Shown here: positions 25,411 through 35,383 of the stretch, in pieces
Layout of the letters: each line of letters opens with the position of its first letter
How positions within the stretch are numbered: the stretch's first letter is position 1
DNA from: Candidatus Dormiibacterota bacterium
GTDB taxonomy: Bacteria > Chloroflexota > Dormibacteria > Dormibacterales > Dormibacteraceae
Length of the DNA: 39,768 bases
Assembly (NCBI GenBank): GCA_003151935.1
Contig: PLYZ01000051.1
Coordinates: 1-39,768 of the forward strand
Direction of reading: 5' to 3'
The notes under the pieces: generated by a model
Told to the model about the DNA's origin: nothing
Seen by the model: the letters and a program-made list of their open reading frames with translations, nothing else
Databases searched by the model: none
Program-made: the position numbers and the translations under genes

Positions 25411-25974
25411 ATGGCCTCGCACCCGCGTTCTCTTGGCGAGACGCTCTTACGCTTCTACAGGCTCACGCATAAACGGTTGTTGACGGCGGCGGAGGAGCTG
25501 ACGCCCGAGCAATTTACGTGGAGCGCAGGTCCGAGCCTTCACTCGATCGCGTGGCAGCTGTGGCACGCCGCCCGCTGGGACGACGTGTTCGCGTCCTACT
25601 TTCACAAGGCCCTGGCCCGGGATCCTCGTTCCCAGGTGTGGGAGAGAGGGTCACTGGCGGACCAATGGTCACTGGCTTCCGGCGCAATGGGTCGGCGCGA
25701 CACCGGTACCGAGATGTCGGACGAGGCGGCGGAAGAGATTCGGTTCCCTGATCAGAAGGAAGTCATTGGCTATGCCAGGCTCGCCTTCGCATACGCCGAG
25801 GACGGGATCGCGCTCATCCCGGAAGATCAATTGCTGGCAGCTCCGCCGGTTGACCCGGATGGCGACACGAAGTTCGACAACGCTCTCATCTACCTCGAAC
25901 ACCTGAGCCGCCATCTCGGGATGATCGAGTCGATTCGCGGGCTTCAAGGATTGGTCGGCTCTTCCAACCGCTGA
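25411..25974 (+). CDS. DinB-superfamily protein (metal-dependent four-helix bundle)
   Basis: This 187-residue protein has a DinB/DUF664-type pattern: helix 1 LGETLLRFYRLTHKRLLTAA, the loop GPSLHSIAWQLWHAARWDD carrying the first His ligand, and the last helix ALIYLEHLSRHLGMIESIRG with two more His. Members are Zn/Ni-binding, and many are thiol-dependent transferases (mycothiol or bacillithiol). A detoxification role is inference. It starts four bases after the TetR stop, in the same operon. Confidence 0.85.
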   Translation: MASHPRSLGETLLRFYRLTHKRLLTAAEELTPEQFTWSAGPSLHSIAWQLWHAARWDDVFASYFHKALARDPRSQVWERGSLADQWSLASGAMGRRDTGTEMSDEAAEEIRFPDQKEVIGYARLAFAYAEDGIALIPEDQLLAAPPVDPDGDTKFDNALIYLEHLSRHLGMIESIRGLQGLVGSSNR

Positions 25975-26333
25975 CGCCTTACAGGAGAATCGTAGATTCT
26001 GCCCGGCCAATGTCTGTTGCCATTTGCCCGTCGGCGAGTGTGGCTCAACGGGGTAGGACCATCGCACCTTCCTGGTCGCGGCCGTGGTATCCGCCGTTCG
26101 ATTGATTCGCCTACACCGCAACCGTGCGATGTGGGATGCGAAGGTAGAGGCACCATTCGAGCCGGCGGCCTCGGCCTCACAGGAATTGCTTTCGCGATAC
26201 AGCAAGAACTGGTAGCCCAAGCGGGACGCTATTCGAACCGGCTCGACAAACTACTCGTAGCCCTTGCGGCGAAGTAAGAATCGCGCGGGGGGTGGGCCGC
26301 GCTGGCCGCCCGACTCCCCTGTTGAACCCCCGC
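25975..26333. other. Gene-free stretch at left edge of accessory region
   Basis: No convincing gene is seen in these 359 bp. An open plus-strand frame (26017-26277) has no recognisable domain except its tail, AQAGRYSNRLDKL, which is shared with two other places in the window and is the coded face of the tRNA-3'-like repeat at 26208-26247. The rest may be remnant DNA. Confidence 0.5.
26208..26247 (+). repeat. tRNA-3'-end-like repeat, copy A
   Basis: The 18-base core GCGGGACGCTATTCGAAC (26221-26238) is identical in copies B and C1. Read on the minus strand it resembles a tRNA end: TTCGAAT, five extra bases, then CCCGC and GGGCTACCA. Flanking bases encode VAQAGRYSNRLDKL on the plus strand. Confidence 0.75.
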
Positions 26334-26732
26334 CTACTGGGGTCTCACCTCGACGAACCCGGCGGCGTTGAAGTCGCCGTCGAACGCCAACGCCTCGCGG
26401 ATCCGGCGCCGCCGCATCACAGCGAAGCTTGTGGCATCAACAAATGAATACTCGCGCTCTGCACGTGATCGAAGCCAGCGCCAAGCTTCGGTTTCGGTGG
26501 TCTCATCAACGTGAACAACCTCGACGTCCTTGAGCGCCTCCAATCGGTCGACGAAACCAACCGCCGCAGCGTGCCCGGAGCGTCGACGAAGCAGCGTCCA
26601 TGTCTCACCGACGACGTGATTGGTCGTAACGACCCGGCCGACACCCCGCTCAACAAGCGCCTTCGCTTGCGCGTGGCGGCCGTCCCTGCGCTCCTGTAGG
26701 CCGAACCAGAAACTGGTGTCCGCGAACCTCAC
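26334..26732 (-). CDS. vapC: PIN-domain toxin VapC
   Basis: This 132-residue PIN RNase has the acidic catalytic set: Asp5 in FADTSFWFGL, Glu in NHVVGETWTLLRRR, Asp in YSFVDATSFAVMR, and Asp in ALAFDGDFNAAGF. VapC toxins cut specific RNAs (often tRNA or rRNA) when freed from VapB. GTG 26732 overlaps the antitoxin stop by 4 bp (GTGA), the classic vapBC order. It lies between tRNA-3'-like repeats A and B. Confidence 0.9.
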   Translation of the reverse strand: MRFADTSFWFGLQERRDGRHAQAKALVERGVGRVVTTNHVVGETWTLLRRRSGHAAAVGFVDRLEALKDVEVVHVDETTETEAWRWLRSRAEREYSFVDATSFAVMRRRRIREALAFDGDFNAAGFVEVRPQ

Positions 26733-26953
26733 CGGTCGCGGTCGTACACGACCGCATCGAGGTCCTCGACAGGACCATCGTCCAGCCATCCGGTGAGCGC
26801 CTTCCACGGATCCGTGGCGGGACGCTGGTCGACCACCAGCTCGCGCGCCAGTGAAGCCCTGATCAGTGCCGCCTTAGACAATCCTCGTCGCGCCGCCTCG
26901 GCCTCGGCGGCGTCGTCCAGCGCCTCATCGATGTGAATCTGAATCCGCCTCAC
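26729..26953 (-). CDS. vapB: Ribbon-helix-helix antitoxin VapB
   Basis: This 74-residue protein has an N-terminal ribbon-helix-helix (RRIQIHIDEALDDAAEAEAA, RRGLSKAALIRASLAREL) for operator binding and an acidic C-terminal tail (GWLDDGPVEDLDAVVYD) of the kind that occupies a PIN toxin. GTG 26953 was chosen; an in-frame GTG five codons upstream is possible, and no clear Shine-Dalgarno favours either. It is coupled to vapC by GTGA. Confidence 0.85.
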   Translation of the reverse strand: MRRIQIHIDEALDDAAEAEAARRGLSKAALIRASLARELVVDQRPATDPWKALTGWLDDGPVEDLDAVVYDRDR

Positions 26954-26990
26954 ACGACCAGCATACACACCATCGGCGCGTGAGGTATGT

Positions 26991-27030
26991 ACTGGTAGCC
27001 CTGGCGGGACGCTATTCGAACTACCTCGAC
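26991..27030 (+). repeat. tRNA-3'-end-like repeat, copy B
   Basis: The 18-base core at 27004-27021 is identical to copies A and C1. It is preceded by GGTAGCCCTG and encodes VALAGRYSNYLDQL before a stop. It lies just upstream of vapB and 60 bp from the 3' end of the lipocalin-like gene. Confidence 0.75.
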
Positions 27031-27093
27031 CAGCTTGGAGAGCTTGTGAACCGCTGAAGGACGAGGTTCTGAAGCCTAAACGCCTGTTGCCTA

Positions 27094-27516
27094 CTAATCC
27101 CGTTCCCAAACGATCCTGCGGACGTCAATCTTGCCTGGGGACACGATGCTTGGCGCCGGTGCCGACTCGATCAGCAGCCTGTCGCCCTCGATCGTAAAGT
27201 GGCGCCTCTGCTCGGTGCCGTTCCAGTCTTCGTTCCAGGAGACATCGACGGTCGTGATGAAGTCGTTACCTTCAATGCGGTAGCGGCCGCTGTACGCAAG
27301 CATCGACTTGTGCAGCGCGGCTCGTTCGGGGTCGCCCATCCCACCCTTGCGGTCGTCGGCGGTCGTCAGTGCCATGCTGCGACCCTCGCGGGTCAGGATC
27401 AGGAAGCCCTTTGGGTGTGCTCCAAAGACGTTCTGGGGCGCTTCGTTTTCGGCAACCACTTGCCAGGAAACGAGTCTCCAAGTGCCAACAAGGGCCTCTG
27501 AATCCTCCGCGCACAC
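27094..27516 (-). CDS. Lipocalin-like domain protein
   Basis: The protein has about 140 residues: ALVGTWRLVSWQVVAENEAP, then GFLILTREGRSMALTTADDR, SMLAYSGRYRIEGNDFITTV and LLIESAPAPS. This matches the lipocalin-like family PF13924, small beta-barrels of unclear ligand common in accessory DNA. The start is ambiguous: GTG 27516 (chosen, since conserved sequence begins soon after), GTG 27537 or ATG 27585. The longer versions run into the repeat C1 region and are rich in Arg and Cys, unlike the family. The gene is bracketed by repeats B and C1. Confidence 0.75.
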   Translation of the reverse strand: MCAEDSEALVGTWRLVSWQVVAENEAPQNVFGAHPKGFLILTREGRSMALTTADDRKGGMGDPERAALHKSMLAYSGRYRIEGNDFITTVDVSWNEDWNGTEQRRHFTIEGDRLLIESAPAPSIVSPGKIDVRRIVWERD

Positions 27517-27582
27517 GCTGCTGCATAGTTTGCACACGCGGGCGGATCGACACCGTCGAGTCGTGGCGCCAACGGAAGGAGG

Positions 27583-27622
27583 CATAGCCCAAGCGGGACG
27601 CTATTCGAACCGCCTGGATGAA
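27583..27622 (+). repeat. tRNA-3'-end-like repeat, copy C1
   Basis: The 18-base core at 27593-27610 matches copies A and B. It encodes IAQAGRYSNRLDEL and the frame stops in the adjoining attL. Compared with copy A, the codons for Arg, Leu and Asp after the core differ but the residues are kept. Confidence 0.75.
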
Positions 27623-27645
27623 CTCGAATTACTGGCGATTCAAGA

Positions 27646-27662
27646 TTGGTAGCCCCGGCGGG
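27646..27662 (+). repeat. attL: attL candidate, 17-bp direct repeat
   Basis: TTGGTAGCCCCGGCGGG is identical to 35270-35286, which is the 3' end of tRNA-Glu in antisense. The copies are in direct orientation 7.6 kb apart and bracket the recombinase-bearing segment. Confidence 0.75.
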
Positions 27663-27710
27663 ACTCGAGCCGACAGTTCCTGAGCCGACGCAGCCCGGAT
27701 CAGGGGCGAC

Positions 27711-29207
27711 TCAACCCGAATCGGGTGCGCGACCACGCTGTCCCGTGTGATCGGGGAGAGCGACGTCGAGGGCGGCCGGCGTTGCCTCGTCGGCGGCAGA
27801 GCCGAAGCCCATCTGCTCCAGTGCACCCCGCCAAGACTGGCGCCACTGCTCTCGGGCACCGGGGTCGATGAGTTGCGCGTCGACGTCGAAATGTCGACCC
27901 TTGCGCCCAGCGGGCCATCGCTCCAAGTCGAGGAGAAAGCCGCGTGCCAGGATCGCCCGCCGTAGCAGGTCGCGGGCCCGATCCAGCGCGAGAGCCCACT
28001 TCACCCCGCGCCAGGTAGTTCGTTCGGTGCTCGAGATCTTGTATGCCTGCGCCTCGAGCTCCTTGGTTGTGGGGTTGGAACCGTGCACGACGAGCGAGCG
28101 AAGCCCGTAGATGCATTTGATGTCTGAGTAGATCCTTGTTGGCGGGTCGGTCGGCGTGGCAAGCAGTGCGGCCGCCCGTGACCGCAAACGGAGACCGATC
28201 TCTTCCTGTTCCGAACCGCCCAGCAGGGCGGCTTCGATGCCGACCGCAATGTCGACCAGCATGTCGAACCAGGAACGCGTTACAAAGGACCGGCCGAATC
28301 GGCTCAGTGCAATGCCGAGGCTGTGTGGATTCTTGTCGTCGCCGCCCCAGGCGGCCAGTCGATCGCCCAGGGCCGCGATCGGAGCGGCATGCTCGGGCTG
28401 GACGTGCCCTATCCGCTGAACCAACTCCATGAATCCGAAGTCGTGTCGAACGATTTCAGGTCTGTAAAAACGGACGCGGCCAGGCGCAGCCGTAATGTCC
28501 ACGACAGCTTGCGATGTGGTCGCGGTGGCGAGTCGCAGCGCCGAGGTTAGAGTTTCTATTCGAGCGAGCGCCAGCCCTTTCGCGGCTGAATAGCCTTCCC
28601 CCATTCGGTCCCCGACCGCGGCCTCGGTGTGGGTAATCAAGGTGGCGAAGGTGAAGCTGGGGCCGGTTCGGTATCCAATTTCTGCGTCGAGCAGGCGCCC
28701 TGCTCCAGGAATGAAGCCATCGATGTCCCGATAGGCATCGGTTAGACCCCAGTTCCCGACAGGCCGCAGTTCCACACCACCGATGGAGAACGGAGCGTCG
28801 AGCGTGATGTCCGATATCACGCGCGCCGCGACGGCGCGGTCCCGGTCTCTCTGCACCAGGTCGAGCATCTCGTCAACCGCGGCCGCGAGGTCCGCCGGCC
28901 TGAGCTCAAATTCCAAATGCAGATCTGCAGCGCGGAGAACCACGCCATCGAGCACGGCCCAGATGTATTGCGACGGGAGCTCGTGCCTGCCGAGCGGGCC
29001 TGCGAAGCGATCCGGGAAAGCCGACTCCAGAGCCTCCTCGAGCTGGTGATACTCAGCGAGTGACAGCACGCTCTGGCCCCAATCAGGCATGAGTTCCATC
29101 CACTTCGAGGGTTGGAGTCGTACGGCGCGTTCCTGGGTGCGCAGGTGCTCAAATACAGCGATCACGAGCGCTCGCGCTGCCCCGCGGACCGAGGGAATAT
29201 CAGCCAT
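27711..29207 (-). CDS. HEPN-domain protein, ApeA-like, candidate abortive-infection RNase
   Basis: This 498-residue protein has a long N-terminal region without recognised motifs (residues 1 to about 290) and a C-terminal helical HEPN-like domain. There, RLRSRAAALLATPTDPPTRI leads to IYGLRSLVVHG, giving R370-x4-H375, the R-X4-6-H RNase motif of HEPN proteins, in the context (YxLRS-x-xVHG) seen in ApeA-type anti-phage proteins. Family members cut RNA after infection and halt growth. The N-terminal part would be the sensor; this is inference. The gene is next to attL, divergent from the 29316 ORF. If the element circularises, its 3' end overlaps the extended recombinase frame. Confidence 0.65.
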   Translation of the reverse strand: MADIPSVRGAARALVIAVFEHLRTQERAVRLQPSKWMELMPDWGQSVLSLAEYHQLEEALESAFPDRFAGPLGRHELPSQYIWAVLDGVVLRAADLHLEFELRPADLAAAVDEMLDLVQRDRDRAVAARVISDITLDAPFSIGGVELRPVGNWGLTDAYRDIDGFIPGAGRLLDAEIGYRTGPSFTFATLITHTEAAVGDRMGEGYSAAKGLALARIETLTSALRLATATTSQAVVDITAAPGRVRFYRPEIVRHDFGFMELVQRIGHVQPEHAAPIAALGDRLAAWGGDDKNPHSLGIALSRFGRSFVTRSWFDMLVDIAVGIEAALLGGSEQEEIGLRLRSRAAALLATPTDPPTRIYSDIKCIYGLRSLVVHGSNPTTKELEAQAYKISSTERTTWRGVKWALALDRARDLLRRAILARGFLLDLERWPAGRKGRHFDVDAQLIDPGAREQWRQSWRGALEQMGFGSAADEATPAALDVALPDHTGQRGRAPDSG

Positions 29208-29315
29208 CGCCTGGACCCGAAGCGTATGCCTACGGCGATAGTAACTGTCTTAAAGCTACCCTAGGTAAGAAGCACGCGAGCCCACCCTCTCCGATGACCG
29301 TAGGATGCCTCGGAG

Positions 29316-29411
29316 ATGAGCATTGGGATTGGCGCCAAGGACTTCCGAGTCGTACGCGCGATCGAGCGCGACATCATGGAAGGCCTCACCCGCGAACGGG
29401 ACGACCGCTGA
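29316..29411 (+). CDS. 31-residue ORF coupled to the downstream membrane protein
   Basis: ATG 29316 opens a 31-codon frame (MSIGIGAKDFRVVRAIERD, then MEGLTRERDDR) whose TGA shares its A with the ATG of the next gene (TGATG). Codon choice is coding-like, with G/C in most third positions, and CGGAG precedes the start. The sequence is charged and likely helical. I do not recognise it; it may be a leader peptide or a small functional protein. Confidence 0.45.
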   Translation: MSIGIGAKDFRVVRAIERDIMEGLTRERDDR

Positions 29412-30019
29412 TGGACACCGCAACGCAGACACTTGTCAGCTCGGTCGCCGCCGCGGTGGCCGCTATCGCCGCGGTGTTCGCGCTCGGCATCGCGGTCGTC
29501 GCCCTCTTCGTCGCTCGCAGCACTCTCCGCGAAGCACGCGCGACGACAGAGGCTCAGCGCGAAACGTTGCGAGCAACCGAGGCCGCCGCGACGGCGACCG
29601 AGGCAGTTGCGGGCAGGATCGAAACGTCGACTCGGGTGCTGCGTCTGATCTTCGCCGAAGCGCAGGCAACGCGCGAGCTCGAGCAGCTACGCCGAGTCGC
29701 CGACCAGGTCGCGCTGCTGATTCCGTTGCGCCGGGCCGTACGGAAAGCCAGTCTCCAGCCCGACCCGGACAACCTAGCGCCGTGGTTTGCGCACAACGAC
29801 GCGCAGGCTCTTCTGGCTGCGCAGGTCGAAGGGCTGCCGCCAGATGAGCTTCCGAAATGTCGTGAGATGGCGACGACGGCCGATCCGAGGTACACAGACG
29901 GTCTCGACGAACAGGCGACCCACGAAATCAAGGGAGCGATCACGACCGCCCGCCTCCGACTCGAGCAGCTCACGGCTGAGGCGACCACTGAACTGACTCG
30001 TTCTCAAAACGGAGCGTGA
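29411..30019 (+). CDS. Membrane-anchored coiled-coil protein, unknown
   Basis: This 202-residue protein has an N-terminal transmembrane helix (VAAAVAAIAAVFALGIAVVA, LFVAR), then a long heptad-like region (LREARATTEAQRETLRATEA, then ATATEAVAGRIETSTRVLRL) and a C-terminal charged helical part. This plan (one helix plus cytoplasmic coiled coil) is common among phage-defence and element-borne accessory proteins, but no specific family is evident. It is coupled by TGATG to the 31-residue ORF and divergent from the HEPN gene, so a joint function is possible. Confidence 0.68.
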   Translation: MDTATQTLVSSVAAAVAAIAAVFALGIAVVALFVARSTLREARATTEAQRETLRATEAAATATEAVAGRIETSTRVLRLIFAEAQATRELEQLRRVADQVALLIPLRRAVRKASLQPDPDNLAPWFAHNDAQALLAAQVEGLPPDELPKCREMATTADPRYTDGLDEQATHEIKGAITTARLRLEQLTAEATTELTRSQNGA

Positions 30020-30034
30020 GCAGCCAAGTCATGC

Positions 30035-30895
30035 TCACGGCGTAAGTACACGCACTATGTGGTTGGTAACAGCCTCGGCTCGCTTGCTGAACTCCTCTAC
30101 CCCAATGGCATACGGAGCGATCGACATTAGCGCATCAACATCGGTGTCGAACGAACCGACGTCGTCCCCGAGACTCTCTTCGAACCATTGGCCAGCATCC
30201 ATGAACCGCCTCCGCATTGGCCAATACTGATCTTTGAACTCGGCAACTCCAATGACACCACGCAGGAATCGCTGGATCAGCGACCAGTACTCGATACCGA
30301 TGCCGGCCACGCGCGCCGAGATTGATTCCAAAGCCATTCTGAAGGCACTCTCAAGCCCTGCGTCGTCGACAAGGTATTCTCCGCCGCCGGGGCTGTACGA
30401 GGCCAGGGTCGTTCCGAGTGAGGCGTTGAGCCAGTCGTCTGGCAACTCTTGCAGAAGGAGTCCCTCGATTCGTGACACCCGATCCTTCGATCGCTCGGAC
30501 GGTGCATTGACGTAGAGCCTCATCGAATTACCGAGGGCGGTGAGCTGCTCATCGAGTCTCGGCCGGCGGAGGCGATCGGCGAGGTCGGCCAAGAAGACCG
30601 CCATCGGCAAGCCTTTACTGCGCGGATCGAAGTTGAGGCTGTAGCGCGCCAACACGTAGTCGCTCAGCAGTGGCTCGTTAAGGCCACGGCCAACGAGTTC
30701 TGTGACGTCCTTGGCGACGGCTCCAGCGTCGGCGGGAGATAGCACCGCTTTTGCGTCGTCGACCGCCGCCGTGAAGGAGGATGAGTCCCCCTCCCAATCG
30801 GGGTGGAAGTAGGACAAGACGAAGTCCTGGAACGCGTACAGCCTGCGCACCAAGCGCCCGTCCGGCATGCGTTCCGTGCCCGGAGGATCGCTCAC
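30035..30895 (-). CDS. Immunity-like protein (CdiI_2-type N-terminus plus colicin-immunity-like C-terminus)
   Basis: This 286-residue protein appears to join two immunity-type domains. Residues of about 15-115 (LYAFQDFVLSYFHPDWEGDS, then SLNFDPRSKGLPMAVFLADL) resemble contact-dependent inhibition immunity proteins, which share the LxxFLxxYFHxDW pattern. The C-terminal part (IEYWSLIQRFLRGVIGVAEF, KDQYW) resembles self-protective colicin-like immunity proteins. Such proteins bind and neutralise a cognate toxin in the cytosol. No toxin gene lies in the window. GTG 30895 overlaps the preceding gene stop (GTGA). Assignments rest on recalled patterns, not a search. Confidence 0.5.
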   Translation of the reverse strand: MSDPPGTERMPDGRLVRRLYAFQDFVLSYFHPDWEGDSSSFTAAVDDAKAVLSPADAGAVAKDVTELVGRGLNEPLLSDYVLARYSLNFDPRSKGLPMAVFLADLADRLRRPRLDEQLTALGNSMRLYVNAPSERSKDRVSRIEGLLLQELPDDWLNASLGTTLASYSPGGGEYLVDDAGLESAFRMALESISARVAGIGIEYWSLIQRFLRGVIGVAEFKDQYWPMRRRFMDAGQWFEESLGDDVGSFDTDVDALMSIAPYAIGVEEFSKRAEAVTNHIVRVLTP

Positions 30896-31449
30896 GCCTC
30901 GAGCCTCGAGTCCAACCAATCGCGAAGCTTCACGTACCAGGCCGCGAGCTGCAGGTAGGAGCCATCGACGGGCGTCCCGTCCAGCTCAACGGAGTACCAG
31001 TCGTATCCGTAGCCTCCGCCGGCGAAGTTGAGCTCGATCGAGTACCAAGACCCGTCGAGACTGATCGACCTGGGCTGCAGTTTGGGGATGCCAGCCGATG
31101 TGGGAGCTGGAATGCGCGCCAGCCATTGCTCCACGTCTGCCACCGGGGCAGATGCCTCGACGGCCTCCATCGTTGGCTCCAAGGGGTGATCCAGATGGCC
31201 GATACGCCACATTGGATCTCCTCGCGGGCCATCAAGGTCTGCCCTCCACACGAGGCGACGCAGAGTGGCCGCCGTCTCTCCAGCAGTCGGCCCTATTACA
31301 GTCCACTGGCGATAGTTAGCGAGGGACGGCTTCTCGGTCAGCCGCAGGCGAGCTCTCCGATCGGAATCCGTCTCCGGGTCCTCCAAGGCAGCCTCGACCA
31401 TGCGCTGTAATTCTCGCCACTCCTCGATGCCGCGCTCTGCGTCATTCAT
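30892..31449 (-). CDS. Unknown 185-residue protein in the immunity-like operon
   Basis: I do not recognise this protein. The N-terminus is acidic and helical (ERGIEEWRELQRMVEAALED), the centre contains WTVIGPTAGETAATLRRLVW, and the C-terminal half is aromatic-rich (SISLDGSWYSIELNFAGGGY, GYDWYSVELDG) ending LAAWYVKLRDWLDSRLEA. The GGGYGYDWYS stretch gives it the look of a small globular immunity or nucleic-acid binding protein. It overlaps both neighbours by 4 bp (ATGA and GTGA), the middle of a three-gene operon. Confidence 0.6.
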   Translation of the reverse strand: MNDAERGIEEWRELQRMVEAALEDPETDSDRRARLRLTEKPSLANYRQWTVIGPTAGETAATLRRLVWRADLDGPRGDPMWRIGHLDHPLEPTMEAVEASAPVADVEQWLARIPAPTSAGIPKLQPRSISLDGSWYSIELNFAGGGYGYDWYSVELDGTPVDGSYLQLAAWYVKLRDWLDSRLEA

Positions 31450-31964
31450 TGCCGTGAGGGTTCGAGGGCGCTAGCCGCCTTTTCCATCCGCGTCAGGAGA
31501 CGCCTCAGGGCCATGTAGACGCGACGGTGGTAGAGACGCCGCGCGTGGCGGGCCGAAATTCCGAGCTCTTCGGCGATCTGGTCGAACGGGACCCCACCCT
31601 TTCGAAGACGATGGACTGAGATCAATCGGTGGATCGTCGGGCTGATCTCGGGGTGGCGGCAGATCTGCTCCGCGAGGGCGAGCTCTTGCTCCCTCCAGTG
31701 TCCCGACCGGAGCACGACCTGCGTCACGGGCGCCCATGCGTCGTTGAGCTGCGACCGCGAGAGTCGCTGCGCCAGCGCCTGACCGCGCCGCGGAGGCTCG
31801 AGCGCGAGCAGGTCCTGGCGCGCGATGAAGTAAGCGCCATGTGGTCCCCTGGTTGCCCCAAGCCTGCCATCGCGGACGCGAAGGCGAAGGGTCTCGACGT
31901 GACAGCCAAGCCCCCGTGCGGCGTCATCGAGTCTGACTAACTCGCCCTTCACCGCAACCGCCAT
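31446..31964 (-). CDS. Dual helix-turn-helix DNA-binding protein (MerR/excisionase-like plus sigma-region-4-like)
   Basis: This 172-residue protein has two DNA-binding parts. The N-terminal one (LVRLDDAARGLGCHVETLRL, then VRDGRLGATRGPHGAYFIAR) matches the MerR-type excisionase HTH_17 fold. The C-terminal one (VPFDQIAEELGISARHARRL, YHRRVYMALRRLL) resembles a sigma-70 region 4 HTH. It could be the element's transcription regulator or directionality factor. ATG 31964 was chosen over TTG 31967. It leads the minus-strand operon and is divergent from the Replic_Relax gene. Confidence 0.68.
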   Translation of the reverse strand: MAVAVKGELVRLDDAARGLGCHVETLRLRVRDGRLGATRGPHGAYFIARQDLLALEPPRRGQALAQRLSRSQLNDAWAPVTQVVLRSGHWREQELALAEQICRHPEISPTIHRLISVHRLRKGGVPFDQIAEELGISARHARRLYHRRVYMALRRLLTRMEKAASALEPSRQ

Positions 31965-32064
31965 CAACTCGATTCTCCCAGATTCAAGGTCCGATGGACA
32001 TGAGTTTTTGGAGATTGTTCTCTATAGAAATGGTTGCTGTTGCCGCGCGCGAGGGCGGCGTGCG

Positions 32065-33198
32065 ATGAGCGTGCGGTCGGCATGCGGCCGCCTTCCCAGC
32101 CCTGAGGTGGCCAGAAGGTGGGCGCTCTGGGGATCGCTCGAGGAAGCGAAGGCCCGCGCGAGTTCAGAGTGCCGAGGTTGGCAGGACGGACCGTATCAGC
32201 CGTATTCCCTCACGACGATCATCGCTCCCGACCGGCTGCCACCGGCCAACGCTCGGCTCAGTGCACGCGTCCGCAGTCAACTCCTCTCCAACATCACCGA
32301 CCGCGACCGCGCTCTGCTCATCGCACTTGCTAGCTTCCGCTACCTCGACATGCGTCAGATCCAATCGCTCATGTTCCCCAGCCAGCGCACCACCCAGATG
32401 AGAATCCACCACCTCCTCGAGCTCGGACTCGTCCACCGCTGGAAGATCTTCGAGACCAACTTCTACCGCTGGCCCTCCGTCATCCTCCTCGCGCCGCGGG
32501 GGGCGGCGCTCGTTGCCCAGCTGCTCGACTCGAACCGCACAGCAAACATCGAGCAGGCTCACCTCGCGGCTGATCGACGCGGCCGGTTCTGGCGCACGCT
32601 GAGCGCGAACTGGTTCTTCGTCCGGCTCGCCGAGGCCAGCCCCAGTGCCGGGCGGGTGGGATTCTACCGCTGGCTAGGACCCGCCGATCTCCGGCCCGAC
32701 GATGACGGCCGCAGCCTGGTCACCGAAGGCTGCGGCCTGTATTTGTTCCCGGACGGCGATGTCGCCTTCGACCTCGACTGGGCTCGCGCCGACCTAGAAC
32801 GCCATTGGCTCCGCCGCCGGCTCGACCTGTACTTCCGGTACTTCGTCTGCAACGTCGATCCCCCGATTCACCACGTCCTATTCGTCGCGCGCTCGGAGCG
32901 AGGCGAGCGCCGCTTGGTGAGCGCTGTCCGGCGGCAGCATCGCAGCTGGTTCAGGAGCTACCAACGGTCGTGGGTCACGACGATTGACCGCGTCGACCGT
33001 GAGGGACCGCTGGGCACGATCTGGCGTTATGCGTACTCATTCCCACACGAGCCAGAGGGTTGGGTCGCACCGGACGAGGGCGAGCGTCTCAGGCTCGAAG
33101 ACTTCCCGAAGGCGCCGCCCGAGCACGTCGACCCTCGCGGTTGCATTGGTCGGCCGCAATGGTGGCGGTTCCGACCGTTAGGAGCCGGCGGACCATGA
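32065..33198 (+). CDS. Replication-relaxation family protein (Replic_Relax)
   Basis: This 377-residue protein has the Replic_Relax winged-helix start (ITDRDRALLIALASFRYLDM, RQIQSLMFPS, MRIHHLLELGLVHRWKIF) followed by YRWPSVILLAPRGAALVAQL. This family (PF13814) is carried by plasmids and integrative elements and is thought to act in their replication or mobilisation. The C-terminal half (YRWLGPADLRPDDDGR, PDGDVAFDLDWARADLERH) resembles the usual nuclease-like second half, with acidic residues in DVAFDLDWARAD. A TTG at 32008 would add 19 residues rich in Cys/Arg, so ATG 32065 is preferred. ATGA coupling links it to the next small ORF. Confidence 0.8.
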   Translation: MSVRSACGRLPSPEVARRWALWGSLEEAKARASSECRGWQDGPYQPYSLTTIIAPDRLPPANARLSARVRSQLLSNITDRDRALLIALASFRYLDMRQIQSLMFPSQRTTQMRIHHLLELGLVHRWKIFETNFYRWPSVILLAPRGAALVAQLLDSNRTANIEQAHLAADRRGRFWRTLSANWFFVRLAEASPSAGRVGFYRWLGPADLRPDDDGRSLVTEGCGLYLFPDGDVAFDLDWARADLERHWLRRRLDLYFRYFVCNVDPPIHHVLFVARSERGERRLVSAVRRQHRSWFRSYQRSWVTTIDRVDREGPLGTIWRYAYSFPHEPEGWVAPDEGERLRLEDFPKAPPEHVDPRGCIGRPQWWRFRPLGAGGP

Positions 33199-33365
33199 AA
33201 CGACGCCAGATGAGGGGGGTCAGAATCCGACCCCCTCGACTGATCGACGGCGGCGGACGACGCGAGCTCACTCGAGACGACGTGCTGGCGCTGGTCAACG
33301 CGATCGTCGCGCAGGCAGTTCGCGAAGTCGAGGATGTGGCGCGGCGAGCCGCTGAAGCGGCGTGA
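33195..33365 (+). CDS. 56-residue basic small protein, unknown
   Basis: The ORF starts at ATG 33195, overlapping the Replic_Relax stop (ATGA). It has a basic N-terminus (KRRQMRGVRIRPPRL) and a helical C-terminus (DDVLALVNAIVAQAVREVED, VARRAAEAA) with heptad-like spacing. Coupling and coding-like codon use support it. It may help DNA binding or be a partner of Replic_Relax; this is inference. Confidence 0.5.
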   Translation: MKRRQMRGVRIRPPRLIDGGGRRELTRDDVLALVNAIVAQAVREVEDVARRAAEAA

Positions 33366-33422
33366 TCAGGCGGCACAACACGAAGTTGATTCGGCTGGAC
33401 ACGCGCGGTACGATTGCTGACG

Positions 33423-33797
33423 ATGCCGGCCAAACCACGGACGCCACCCGCGTCGGCGATCCGACTCGGCGAGATCATCCGCCGGGAACGCCTTCGACGC
33501 GACGTGCCAGCTCTGTATCTCGCGAAGAAGGCCGGCGTGGGCCGGTCGTACATCAGCTACCTGGAGAGCGGCGGATTTCAGCAAGTCCGCGTGGACAAGC
33601 TGCTCCGCATCCTCCAAGTCCTCGAGCTCGACATCGAGGCGATCCTCGAGGAGGCCGGATACCTGCCGAAGAAGATCCGCAGCCTGCCCGAGCCCGCCGC
33701 TTACCTGCGGCAGCGATACCGGCTCTCCGAGAGCTCGATCCAGCAGGCGCTCAGCTTTCTCGACTACCTCGTCAGCAGGGAGAAGCCGAAGAGGTGA
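33423..33797 (+). CDS. XRE-family HTH regulator
   Basis: This 124-residue protein has a HTH_3 domain (LGEIIRRERLRRDVPALYLA, KKAGVGRSYISYLESGG, VDKLLRILQVLELD) and a C-terminal helical tail. Such proteins repress element genes or control excision. Its TGA overlaps the recombinase GTG (GTGA), so the two are translationally coupled. ATG 33423 was preferred to a frame start nine bases earlier. Confidence 0.85.
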   Translation: MPAKPRTPPASAIRLGEIIRRERLRRDVPALYLAKKAGVGRSYISYLESGGFQQVRVDKLLRILQVLELDIEAILEEAGYLPKKIRSLPEPAAYLRQRYRLSESSIQQALSFLDYLVSREKPKR

Positions 33798-35383
33798 AGC
33801 GCGCGCTCATCTACCTGCGCGTCTCCACCAAGGAGCAGGCTGAGGGATTCAGCCTTGACGCCCAACGCGAGGCCTGCGTCCGCTTCGTCGCCGACAAGGG
33901 TTGGCTCATGGCAGGCGAGTACTCCGACCGCGGTGAGTCCGCGCGCACGGTGAACCGGCCGATGTTCCAGGAGATGCTGGAGAAGGTTGCGGCCGACAAC
34001 TCGATCTCCCATGTCGTCGTCCACAAACTCGACCGCCTCGCCCGGAATGTCGAGGATCACGTGGTCGTCCGGGGGCACATGCGGAAGCACGGCGTCACGC
34101 TCGTGTCCGTCAGCGAGGGCGTTGACGAATCGCCTTCAGGCCAGCTCGTCGAGAACATCATGGCTTCGATCGCCGCCTTCTACTCAGCCAATCTCGGCCA
34201 GGAGACGAAGAAGGGGATGGGTCAGAAGGCGCGCTCCGGTGGCTGGCCGCACAAAGCGCCGATCGGCTACCGAAACATCCGGCAGGACGGCCTGCGCCGC
34301 TCGATGGCTCAAATCGTCCATGACCCAATCCAGGCGTCGCTAGTTCGGGAGGCATTTCACGTCTTCAGCTGCGGCGAGTTGTCGATCCGCCAGCTCCGCG
34401 ACCTCATGGCCGACCACGGGCTCCGGACGACGGCGGGCACCATCCCCGCCATCTCGCAGATGCATCGCCTCCTCACTAACAAGCTCTACACGGGCGTCGT
34501 GAGCTGGCACGGCGAAGAGCACCAAGGCGAACACGAGCCGATCGTCGAGCCCGAGCTCTTCGACGCGGTTCAAGCAGTGATCCGAAAGCATCAGGGTGGG
34601 GCCGTCCGCGAGCGGCGCCACCACCACTACCTCCGCGGAAAGCTCTTCTGCGCGACCTGCGCGTCCCGTTGGACTGACATGCAGGTCAAGCGGCAGCAGT
34701 ACCGCTACTTCTTCTGCCTCGGCCGCCACCTCCGCAGGACCGCGTGCAAGCAGCCCTACATGCCGGCCGACGAGCTGGAGCGGCTCGTCGAGGCCCACTA
34801 CTTCCGAGTCTTCATCCCGGACGAGCGCAAGGCCGAGATCAGACGGTTCGTCACCGAGGAGGTCAACCGCCGTTTCGCCAACCTCGGCCCATCGAAGGCG
34901 GCTGCCCAGAAGCGCATCGCTCAGCTCGACAACGAAGGCCAGCGTCTCCTGCGCCTCTACCTCGCGGGCGGCCTCGAAATGAATGCCTTCCAGCGCGAGC
35001 AGGATCGCATCGCGACCGAGACCCAGGCCCTCAGCGCACCGGCCGAGCCCGAGGCGGACCTGCAGCTCGCGCCGACGGTGGTCGAGCGCGCCTTCGCGAT
35101 CATCGACAACATCGCCGAGGCCTACCTCCGCGCCAACGATCGCGAGCGGGCGATGTGGAATGAGGCCGTCTTCGCCGGCATCTGGGTCGGGGACCGCGAG
35201 ATCAAGCGGACCGAGTACCGTGACCTCTTCGCATCCATTCTTTCGGACACCAGTTCGAATTGGGTCAGTTTGGTAGCCCCGGCGGGGTTCGAACCCGCGA
35301 TCTCAGCCTTGAGAGGGCTGCGTCCTAGACCACTAGACGACGGGGCCACGTTCTGGTGGGCGGCATTGGGTTTGAACCAATGA
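33794..35383 (+). CDS. int: Large serine recombinase (integrase), C-terminus encoded across tRNA genes
   Basis: Starting at GTG 33794, the 529-residue frame has the resolvase N-terminus RALIYLRVSTKEQAEGFSLD with catalytic Ser11, a VVHKLDRLARNVEDH segment, the Recombinase domain (QKARSGGWPHKAPIGYRN, then LYTGVVSWHGEEH), and a zinc-ribbon pattern (LFCATCASRWTDM, RYFFCLGRHLRRTACKQ). Coiled-coil segments follow. It catalyses integration and excision between attP and attB. The last 38 residues (beginning VSLVAPAGFEPAISALRG) are antisense tRNA-Glu and tRNA-Val sequence; the first stop is at 35381-35383. Confidence 0.93.
   Translation: MKRALIYLRVSTKEQAEGFSLDAQREACVRFVADKGWLMAGEYSDRGESARTVNRPMFQEMLEKVAADNSISHVVVHKLDRLARNVEDHVVVRGHMRKHGVTLVSVSEGVDESPSGQLVENIMASIAAFYSANLGQETKKGMGQKARSGGWPHKAPIGYRNIRQDGLRRSMAQIVHDPIQASLVREAFHVFSCGELSIRQLRDLMADHGLRTTAGTIPAISQMHRLLTNKLYTGVVSWHGEEHQGEHEPIVEPELFDAVQAVIRKHQGGAVRERRHHHYLRGKLFCATCASRWTDMQVKRQQYRYFFCLGRHLRRTACKQPYMPADELERLVEAHYFRVFIPDERKAEIRRFVTEEVNRRFANLGPSKAAAQKRIAQLDNEGQRLLRLYLAGGLEMNAFQREQDRIATETQALSAPAEPEADLQLAPTVVERAFAIIDNIAEAYLRANDRERAMWNEAVFAGIWVGDREIKRTEYRDLFASILSDTSSNWVSLVAPAGFEPAISALRGLRPRPLDDGATFWWAALGLNQ
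35270..35286 (+). repeat. attR: attR candidate inside tRNA-Glu 3' end
   Basis: TTGGTAGCCCCGGCGGG is identical to the copy at 27646-27662. It covers the CCA end, acceptor 3' strand and part of the T arm of tRNA-Glu (minus strand), the classic integration site for serine and tyrosine integrases. Confidence 0.78.
35271..35347 (-). tRNA. tRNA-Glu (anticodon CTC)
   Basis: The minus strand from 35347 folds as a tRNA: acceptor GGCCCCG pairs with CGGGGCT (one G-T pair), D loop GTCTAGTGGTCTAGGAC, anticodon stem CAGCC/GGCTG with loop CTCTCAA giving anticodon CTC, T arm GCGGGTTCGAACCCCGC, discriminator A and encoded CCA. Its 3' end is the element's right att site, so the integrated element leaves it intact. 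Confidence 0.95.

Follow-up and report, generated by a model that had tools for sequence, protein, structure and literature searches.

A compact serine-recombinase island at a tRNA-Glu gene of a Candidatus Dormiibacterota bacterium, with a recombinase gene that seems to be split by integration

Genomic islands in tRNA genes, integrative and mobilizable elements (IMEs) with serine integrases, and the ssrA islands of Dehalococcoides with their DsiB recombinases are already known. The last of these are the closest known system to the element described here; there the recombinase gene invariably extends into the attachment site without a stop codon of its own, and the authors proposed that it is perhaps fully functional only when circular (McMurdie 2011, PMC3146451). 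The family PF13814 comprises MOBC relaxases (PMC5357655, PMC12857230) and defines the MOBC class of serine-integrase IMEs (PMC5357655). Serine integrases are described as not targeting tRNA genes (PMC4383910, PMC9262239), and their zinc-ribbon motif lies at bp 16-24 of attP and bp 11-19 of attB (Rutherford et al., PMC3783163). Here we analyze a stretch of 39,768 nucleotides from a Candidatus Dormiibacterota bacterium, an uncultured soil organism (contig PLYZ01000051.1 of assembly GCA_003151935.1). This stretch, called the window below, makes up contig C83 of the 2.94-Mb assembly and holds a compact serine-recombinase island at a tRNA-Glu gene.

The explanation we consider likely is that an island of ~7.69 kb entered the 3' end of tRNA-Glu(CTC) by means of its own recombinase, here called c8, with recognition of the T-loop, a split recombinase tail and accreted remnants of earlier insertions alongside. 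The T-loop, universal among tRNAs, would act as the zinc-ribbon motif of the recombinase, so that related enzymes could use different tRNA and transfer-messenger RNA (tmRNA) genes. Integration would regenerate the tRNA 3' end and leave the last ~20 recombinase codons at the far end of the island, apart from the rest of the gene. The integrated copy would therefore make a protein with a tRNA-encoded tail, and the circular form would restore a conserved native tail.

Target gene, island ends and older layers

An earlier sequence-only reading had bracketed the recombinase segment with 17-bp direct repeats, the right one being the 3' end of tRNA-Glu, and both points are confirmed. A pattern search of the window places TTGGTAGCCCCGGCGGG at exactly 27646-27662 and 35270-35286, and ARAGORN calls tRNA-Glu(CTC) on the minus strand with a tRNA-Val adjoining, the right 17-bp copy being the 3' end of tRNA-Glu(CTC) with the encoded CCA included. 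When up to 3 mismatches are allowed, the window contains 4 matches vs 0.20 expected by chance. The exact 17-mer has only these two copies in the assembly and is thus not a repeat scattered over unrelated genome positions. The locus has the layout of an island in a tRNA, with an intact tRNA at one end, a displaced tRNA 3' fragment at the other and an integrase gene between them.

27646-27662, plus strand: left repeat of the sequence-only reading, exact copy of the 3' 17 bp of tRNA-Glu; its T-loop-like part is in attB, not attP, register
35271-35347, minus strand: tRNA-Glu(CTC), target gene (ARAGORN); T-loop TTCGAA at 35288-35293, the putative attB'-side motif

Comparison with relatives shows the same site empty or differently filled. 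The tRNA-Glu gene is kept in 15 family genomes, and the sequence just past its 3' end differs nearly every time. In G008, a DinB gene (25411-25974 in the window) is followed by 34 nt and then tRNA-Glu, and in G002 the DinB gene and an F420-type gene run directly to tRNA-Glu; the island is absent from both. In the congener G001, the 3' part of a recombinase at the same tRNA is 96% identical, vs ~79% for the flanking chromosome. Taken together, the repeats, the tRNA, the recombinase, the empty sites in relatives and the G001 recombinase bear out the earlier description of a compact serine-recombinase island at tRNA-Glu.

The left end needs revision. Left of the 17-bp repeat there are three related 45-bp sites, missed by the sequence-only reading, at 26208, 26991 and 27580. 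These sites, termed D1 below, are 82-84% identical and read GTAGCCCAAGCGGGA-CGCTA-TTCGAACC, where the tRNA reads GTAGCCCCGGCGGGA-TTCGAACC, and TTCGAA stands 5 bp further out in the sites. The half-sites proposed for the island are the following.

27580-27624, plus strand: proposed true attL (attP' half-site); predicted crossover ~27587/27588, TTCGAA at 27604-27609
35254-35276, plus strand: putative attP P half-site within attR; TTCGAA at 35254-35259, predicted crossover ~35276/35277

At the recombinase edge of the island TTCGAA lies 11 nt from the CCA end, and in the window, L110, L124 and L128 the P-arm TTCGAA lies to the left of the CCA end at a distance of 10-11 nt, with TTCAAA in L073/L074 (the gap in L074 being read by eye). 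In the attP obtained by joining the two island ends in silico, 33 bp separate two inverted TTCGAA motifs, and the T-loop TTCGAA of the tRNA is 5 bp nearer the centre than these motifs. Such spacing together with a 5-bp-nearer target motif is seen in three elements with different targets. The attP of G013:C203 has the 33-bp spacing and its target is a tmRNA (RF00023, E 7e-19); the attP of G008:C32, partly completed by hand (see below), has the same spacing and TTTGAA on all arms, and its target side looks like the 3' end of a tRNA, although no tRNA was called there. With the dyad set 6 nt inside the tRNA 3' end, the sites match the published attP/attB register, and the zinc-ribbon motif of attP lies 5 bp further out than that of attB, provided that 27580 is the left end. 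We conclude from this register that the sites at 26208, 26991 and 27580 would be attL sites with attP' arms and that the T-loop of the tRNA would serve as the attB' motif. The left end of the island is probably the attP-type half-site at 27580-27624 and not 27646, and the island most likely extends over ~27588-35276 (7689 bp). The boundary drawn earlier at 27646 therefore marks a genuine repeat, but as the end of the island it is probably wrong by ~60 bp.

Alternatively, the repeat at 27646 might be the true left end, with 27580 as the attL of an older element of which only ~60 bp of the body survive. This would account for the perfect 17-bp identity with attR in a sequence with two copies in the genome, the similarity reaches 29 bp at 86% identity, and the recombinase frame across that junction is also open (~33 codons). 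However, the T-loop-like part at 27646 is in the attB register without the +5 shift, no TTCGAA stands at the attP' distance, and two other elements of the same family have the shifted left-end type, with cores that also differ from their target. We regard this alternative as unlikely.

The two mini-cassettes further left, bounded by the D1 sites, are predicted remnants of earlier insertions of the same attL type at the same site.

26208-26252, plus strand: putative relic of an attL-type site, the attP' half-site from a tRNA-Glu serine-recombinase element, on the left side of the PIN/RHH cassette; core, CGCTA and TTCGAA, with the T-loop motif shifted +5
26334-27109, minus strand: PIN toxin / RHH antitoxin cassette (PF01850, PF01402), older accretion
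26991-27035, plus strand: second putative relic attL-type site, from site comparison
27094-27585, minus strand: lipocalin-like gene (PF13924, 78.8 bits), older accretion

The PIN/RHH toxin-antitoxin cassette directly abuts tRNA-Glu in G020:C2, which is the arrangement expected before the insertions right of 26991 and therefore points to accretion at tRNA-Glu. Searched with a profile of the D1 site, other family genomes give about two dozen strong copies, and on contigs with tRNA-Glu 13/13 copies (the three of the window included) have the predicted orientation relative to that gene. We rejected a reading of the D1 sites as integron-like cassette sites; because each has an attP' arm on its right and no P arm on its left, they are read as attL relics of successive insertions.

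A second, weaker core-like stretch at 26250-26275 of the window (GTAGCCCTTGCGGCG), 45 bp after the 26212 site, resembles the 27585/27649 pair and may be due to chance. Short tandem units adjoin tRNA-Glu in three relatives (L066 6600-6920 in G021, L067 5870-6045 in G019 and L068 8420-8600 in G009); they consist of 36-39 nt from the 3' half of tRNA-Glu, reaching to the anticodon, then a GC-rich spacer and an inverted copy of the anticodon arm (CTCTCAAGGCTGAGAG), and represent a different kind of insertion relic. The tRNA-Glu region is present in two contigs of one assembly (G020:C2 and G020:C196) with different left neighbours, which suggests a strain mixture. Elsewhere, an ice-binding-like protein gene (L115 3746-4633 in G002:C14) is flanked by two 16-bp tRNA-Gly repeats (3380, 4709) beside another recombinase element.

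The recombinase gene and its tail

33794-35383, plus strand: c8, large serine recombinase of the core module (PF00239 at 123.7 bits, PF07508, PF13408); stopless frame into tRNA-Glu and tRNA-Val
27588-27652, plus strand: proposed coding region for the native C-terminal tail of the recombinase (QAGRYSNRLDELELLAIQDW and a stop), in frame with the recombinase in the circular form only

The assignment of c8 as a large serine recombinase is given by PF00239, PF07508 and PF13408 in one protein, all above cut-off, and the profile of its family aligns to the A118 integrase structure 4kis. The gene sits at the tRNA edge of the island, and its intact frame reaches the tRNA without a stop and closes within antisense tRNA-Val. 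Reading into a tRNA gene is found for at least 18 of the 70 recombinases with PF07508 in the class, all convergent and in the same orientation (Glu, Gly, Ser, Ala, Lys, Ile, Arg, Asp, Gln); a doubtful tRNA-Ala beside the L206 recombinase was left out of this count.

Across the reconstructed attP, the c8 frame runs on into the left end of the island and gives VAQAGRYSNRLDELELLAIQDW and a stop for 27580. When this tail is compared over 16 D1 sites, one codon encodes Leu in 16/16 by way of four different codons (CTG 8, TTG 4, CTC 3, CTT 1), Asp is found in 15/16 and another Leu in 14/16. A second group, of four tails, shows changes that are mostly synonymous in the tail frame and not in the other two frames. 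This pattern supports selection on the tail, and hence a recombinase that would be complete only in the circular form. The recombinase gene thus seems to be cut in two at each integration, with its C-terminus swapped. A more speculative extension, which we doubt as it stands, is that integration rewrites the enzyme: the native tail made from the circle would favour integration, and the antisense-tRNA tail would silence the recombinase or switch it to excision, so that in this T-loop-recognizing family the attachment site would itself be a built-in directionality switch.

Among viral contigs, a search with the recombinase family yielded 36 distant relatives, and none of the 28 that were checked has a called tRNA overlapping the recombinase stop, while some Firmicutes tails look tRNA- or tmRNA-encoded. 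On viral contigs of other bacteria, four serine recombinases (L278, L289, L294, L296) have GGGEGIRTPVRR-like tails that look RNA-gene-encoded, and read-through may be widespread.

Several points weigh against the explanation of a T-loop-recognizing, split-gene island. It is the 17-bp copy at 27646, of unexplained origin, that matches attR perfectly, and not the site at 27580. A recombinase is missing from most D1 sites, which are relics. The evidence on the tail comes from 16 short sites selected because their frame is intact, and at a few others the tail contains indels or stops. Additionally, a few contig-edge bases of the G008:C32 attP were inserted by hand from the homologous G000:C13 site, and palindromic bases at the predicted dyad leave the crossover uncertain by 1-2 bp. 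Finally, the G001 contig ends inside the recombinase, and a second complete copy of this very island was not seen.

Core module, mobility and cargo

Between the repeats there are eight genes, c1 to c8, of which c5-c6-c7-c8 form a core module and c1-c4 the cargo. Besides c8, the core consists of three genes.

31446-31967, minus strand: c5, helix-turn-helix protein (PF12728), kept in related elements
32065-33198, plus strand: c6, Replic_Relax protein of the MOBC relaxase family (PF13814, 28.9 bits, cut-off 25.3), with catalytic-type residues lost
33423-33797, plus strand: c7, XRE/Cro-type regulator (PF01381), kept in L074 and L119

The complete order c5-c6-c7-c8 is repeated in G008:C32, and partial modules occur in G005, G002, G000:C32 and others. 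Homologues of c5 adjoin homologues of c6 in L110, L074, L115 and L122, with 41-43% identity. Contigs C32, C24 and C13 of the same genome as the window (G000) carry fragments of another member of the same element family, spread over contig ends, with intact c6 residues and a TTTGAA-type motif.

The island had been described as being without transfer genes, which is imprecise, since c6 belongs to a relaxase family; it is probably inactive, however, and the island does lack a coupling protein. Among 14 aligned proteins c6 alone lacks H177, E180, D221, D240 and K252, whereas the other 13 keep these polar residues, which we infer to be catalytic (PD-(D/E)XK-like). The structural model of c6, with a predicted local distance difference test (pLDDT) score of 74.5, has a clear winged helix and then a mixed domain, for which the best nuclease match, PaqCI, is weak (E 0.012); a PDB sequence search with the c6 profile gave no match, and VIA-align of the model listed no nuclease folds. 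The Pfam name Replic_Relax was not accepted as proof of a relaxase in view of the lost residues. Most likely c6 has ceased to nick DNA, and to spread, the island would then depend on conjugation in trans or on some other route. The island has the PF13814 gene of MOBC-type IMEs and not the intact PD-(D/E)XK-like residues.

In larger relatives, PF13814 genes adjoin TrwB/TraG coupling proteins (L118 and L123), and the L123 pair is in the same genome as the window. Beside a PF13814 protein, L121 1438-12000 (G005:C19) has a protein of similar size, and additionally an N6 methylase, a specificity subunit and a NERD-kinase protein. A coupling protein is absent from the island and was not seen in the compact recombinase elements; P-loop_TraG (VirB4-type) had no match in the genome, the assembly being fragmented. 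An active IME, in which c6 as a working MOBC relaxase nicks an origin of transfer (oriT) on the circle and a helper supplies the coupling protein and pore, would be consistent with the PF13814 match, with the place of this family in serine-integrase IMEs (PMC5357655) and with its pairing with TrwB/TraG proteins in relatives. It is nevertheless improbable in view of the residues lost from c6 alone, the island without a coupling protein and the missing VirB4-type match. The earlier term "mobilisable" is thus an extrapolation from the gene content, and transfer in trans is possible but unproven.

The compact size, with a recombinase at one end and an adjoining regulator, might also suggest a satellite packaged by a helper phage. 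However, no terminase, capsid or portal match was found among the island open reading frames (ORFs) scanned, a phage search with c8 gave distant recombinases only (<=28% identity among the matches listed), and the core module is shared with genes of conjugation type, not phage type. We consider a phage satellite very improbable, and the label "satellite" in the sequence-only reading is unsupported, as the annotated ORFs include no phage packaging or capsid gene.

A last alternative is that the island is a fixed remnant that no longer moves, being integrated, with a dead c6 and a recombinase that lacks its native tail in place. The decay of the neighbouring cassettes fits this, as do the lost c6 residues and the failure to find a complete second copy, but the recombinase frame is intact and the G001 recombinase 3' part, at 96% identity, exceeds the similarity of the flanks at the same site. 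A fixed remnant is therefore conceivable, yet we think it the less probable outcome. Excision and transfer are predictions from the sequence, and the island is best called a large-serine-recombinase-driven island of IME descent.

The remaining genes, listed below, would be passenger cargo: a HEPN-like protein, a CdiI_2-like operon and a membrane protein.

27711-29207, minus strand: c1, 498 aa, HEPN-type RxxxxH motif (weak assignment), without family match
29411-30019, plus strand: c2, 202 aa; translation with a hydrophobic N-terminus and then a helical/coiled region, no family match over cut-off
30035-30919, minus strand: c3, CdiI_2 immunity-family protein (PF18593, 37.0 bits, cut-off 26.7)
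30892-31449, minus strand: c4, 185 aa, no assigned family, in an operon with c3

The cargo had been described as a HEPN-like protein, an immunity-like operon and a membrane coiled-coil protein, and this mostly holds, given the CdiI_2 match of c3, the RxxxxH motif of c1 and the hydrophobic N-terminus of c2. The motif is shared between c1 and its sole distant homologue in G069 (LRSLVVHGS / LRSQLVHGS), and c1 may be a HEPN protein. Family scans gave no match for c1, and its model (pLDDT 43.8) was of too low quality for a fold search. On the island PADLOC identified no defence system and returned weak helix-turn-helix matches only; plasmid searches with c6 and c1 and a viral-contig search with c1 gave no match. 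A role of the cargo in defence or competition, suggested by the CdiI_2 match and the HEPN-type motif, is plausible only.

Comparison with known systems

The Dehalococcoides ssrA islands resemble the present one in having a CcrB-type large serine recombinase at the island edge, a direct repeat of the 3' part of an RNA gene, and tandem islands, about half of them without integration genes (PMC3146451). As with DsiB, the attachment site is overlapped by the frame of c8, which lacks its own stop. The Dehalococcoides islands differ in that they target tmRNA only, with a 20-bp repeat and a crossover inferred in the T-loop (PMC3146451), whereas the targets here are tRNA-Glu and many other tRNAs, although the related element G013:C203 does use tmRNA. 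Their module also differs, consisting of DsiA, RecF, ParB, Mom and RNAP-domain genes (PMC3146451), where we find helix-turn-helix, Replic_Relax, XRE and recombinase genes; no DsiA, ParB, Mom or RNAP-domain family occurs among the island ORFs.

Streptococcal IMEs of class 8, which combine a serine integrase, a PF13814/MOBC relaxase and VirD4 (PMC5357655), share with the island the serine integrase, the PF13814 protein and a compact module; the island differs in lacking VirD4, in the loss of the catalytic-type residues of c6 and in its tRNA 3' end target. Serine-integrase phages (A118/LI, Bxb1, phiC31) have the same recombinase domains and the same attP/attB zinc-ribbon register with a 5-bp shift (PMC3783163), but here 16-17 bp of the tRNA 3' end are shared. 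The tRNA islands catalogued by Islander likewise restore the tRNA target, leave a displaced fragment at the far end and accrete in tandem (PMC4383910).

In an uncultured phylum, a serine-integrase family would thus repeatedly target tRNAs, and a simple rule is suggested in which the zinc-ribbon motif is the T-loop hexamer common to tRNAs. If true, this rule predicts targets and could make the enzymes useful for genome engineering in many bacteria. The conserved tail provides sequence evidence that only the circular element restores a complete recombinase gene, a question that the 2011 work on the Dehalococcoides islands had left undecided. Compared with the literature, the features that seem new are the use of tRNA targets by this serine-integrase family, the register of the T-loop, the conserved-tail evidence beyond attP, and the occurrence in this phylum.

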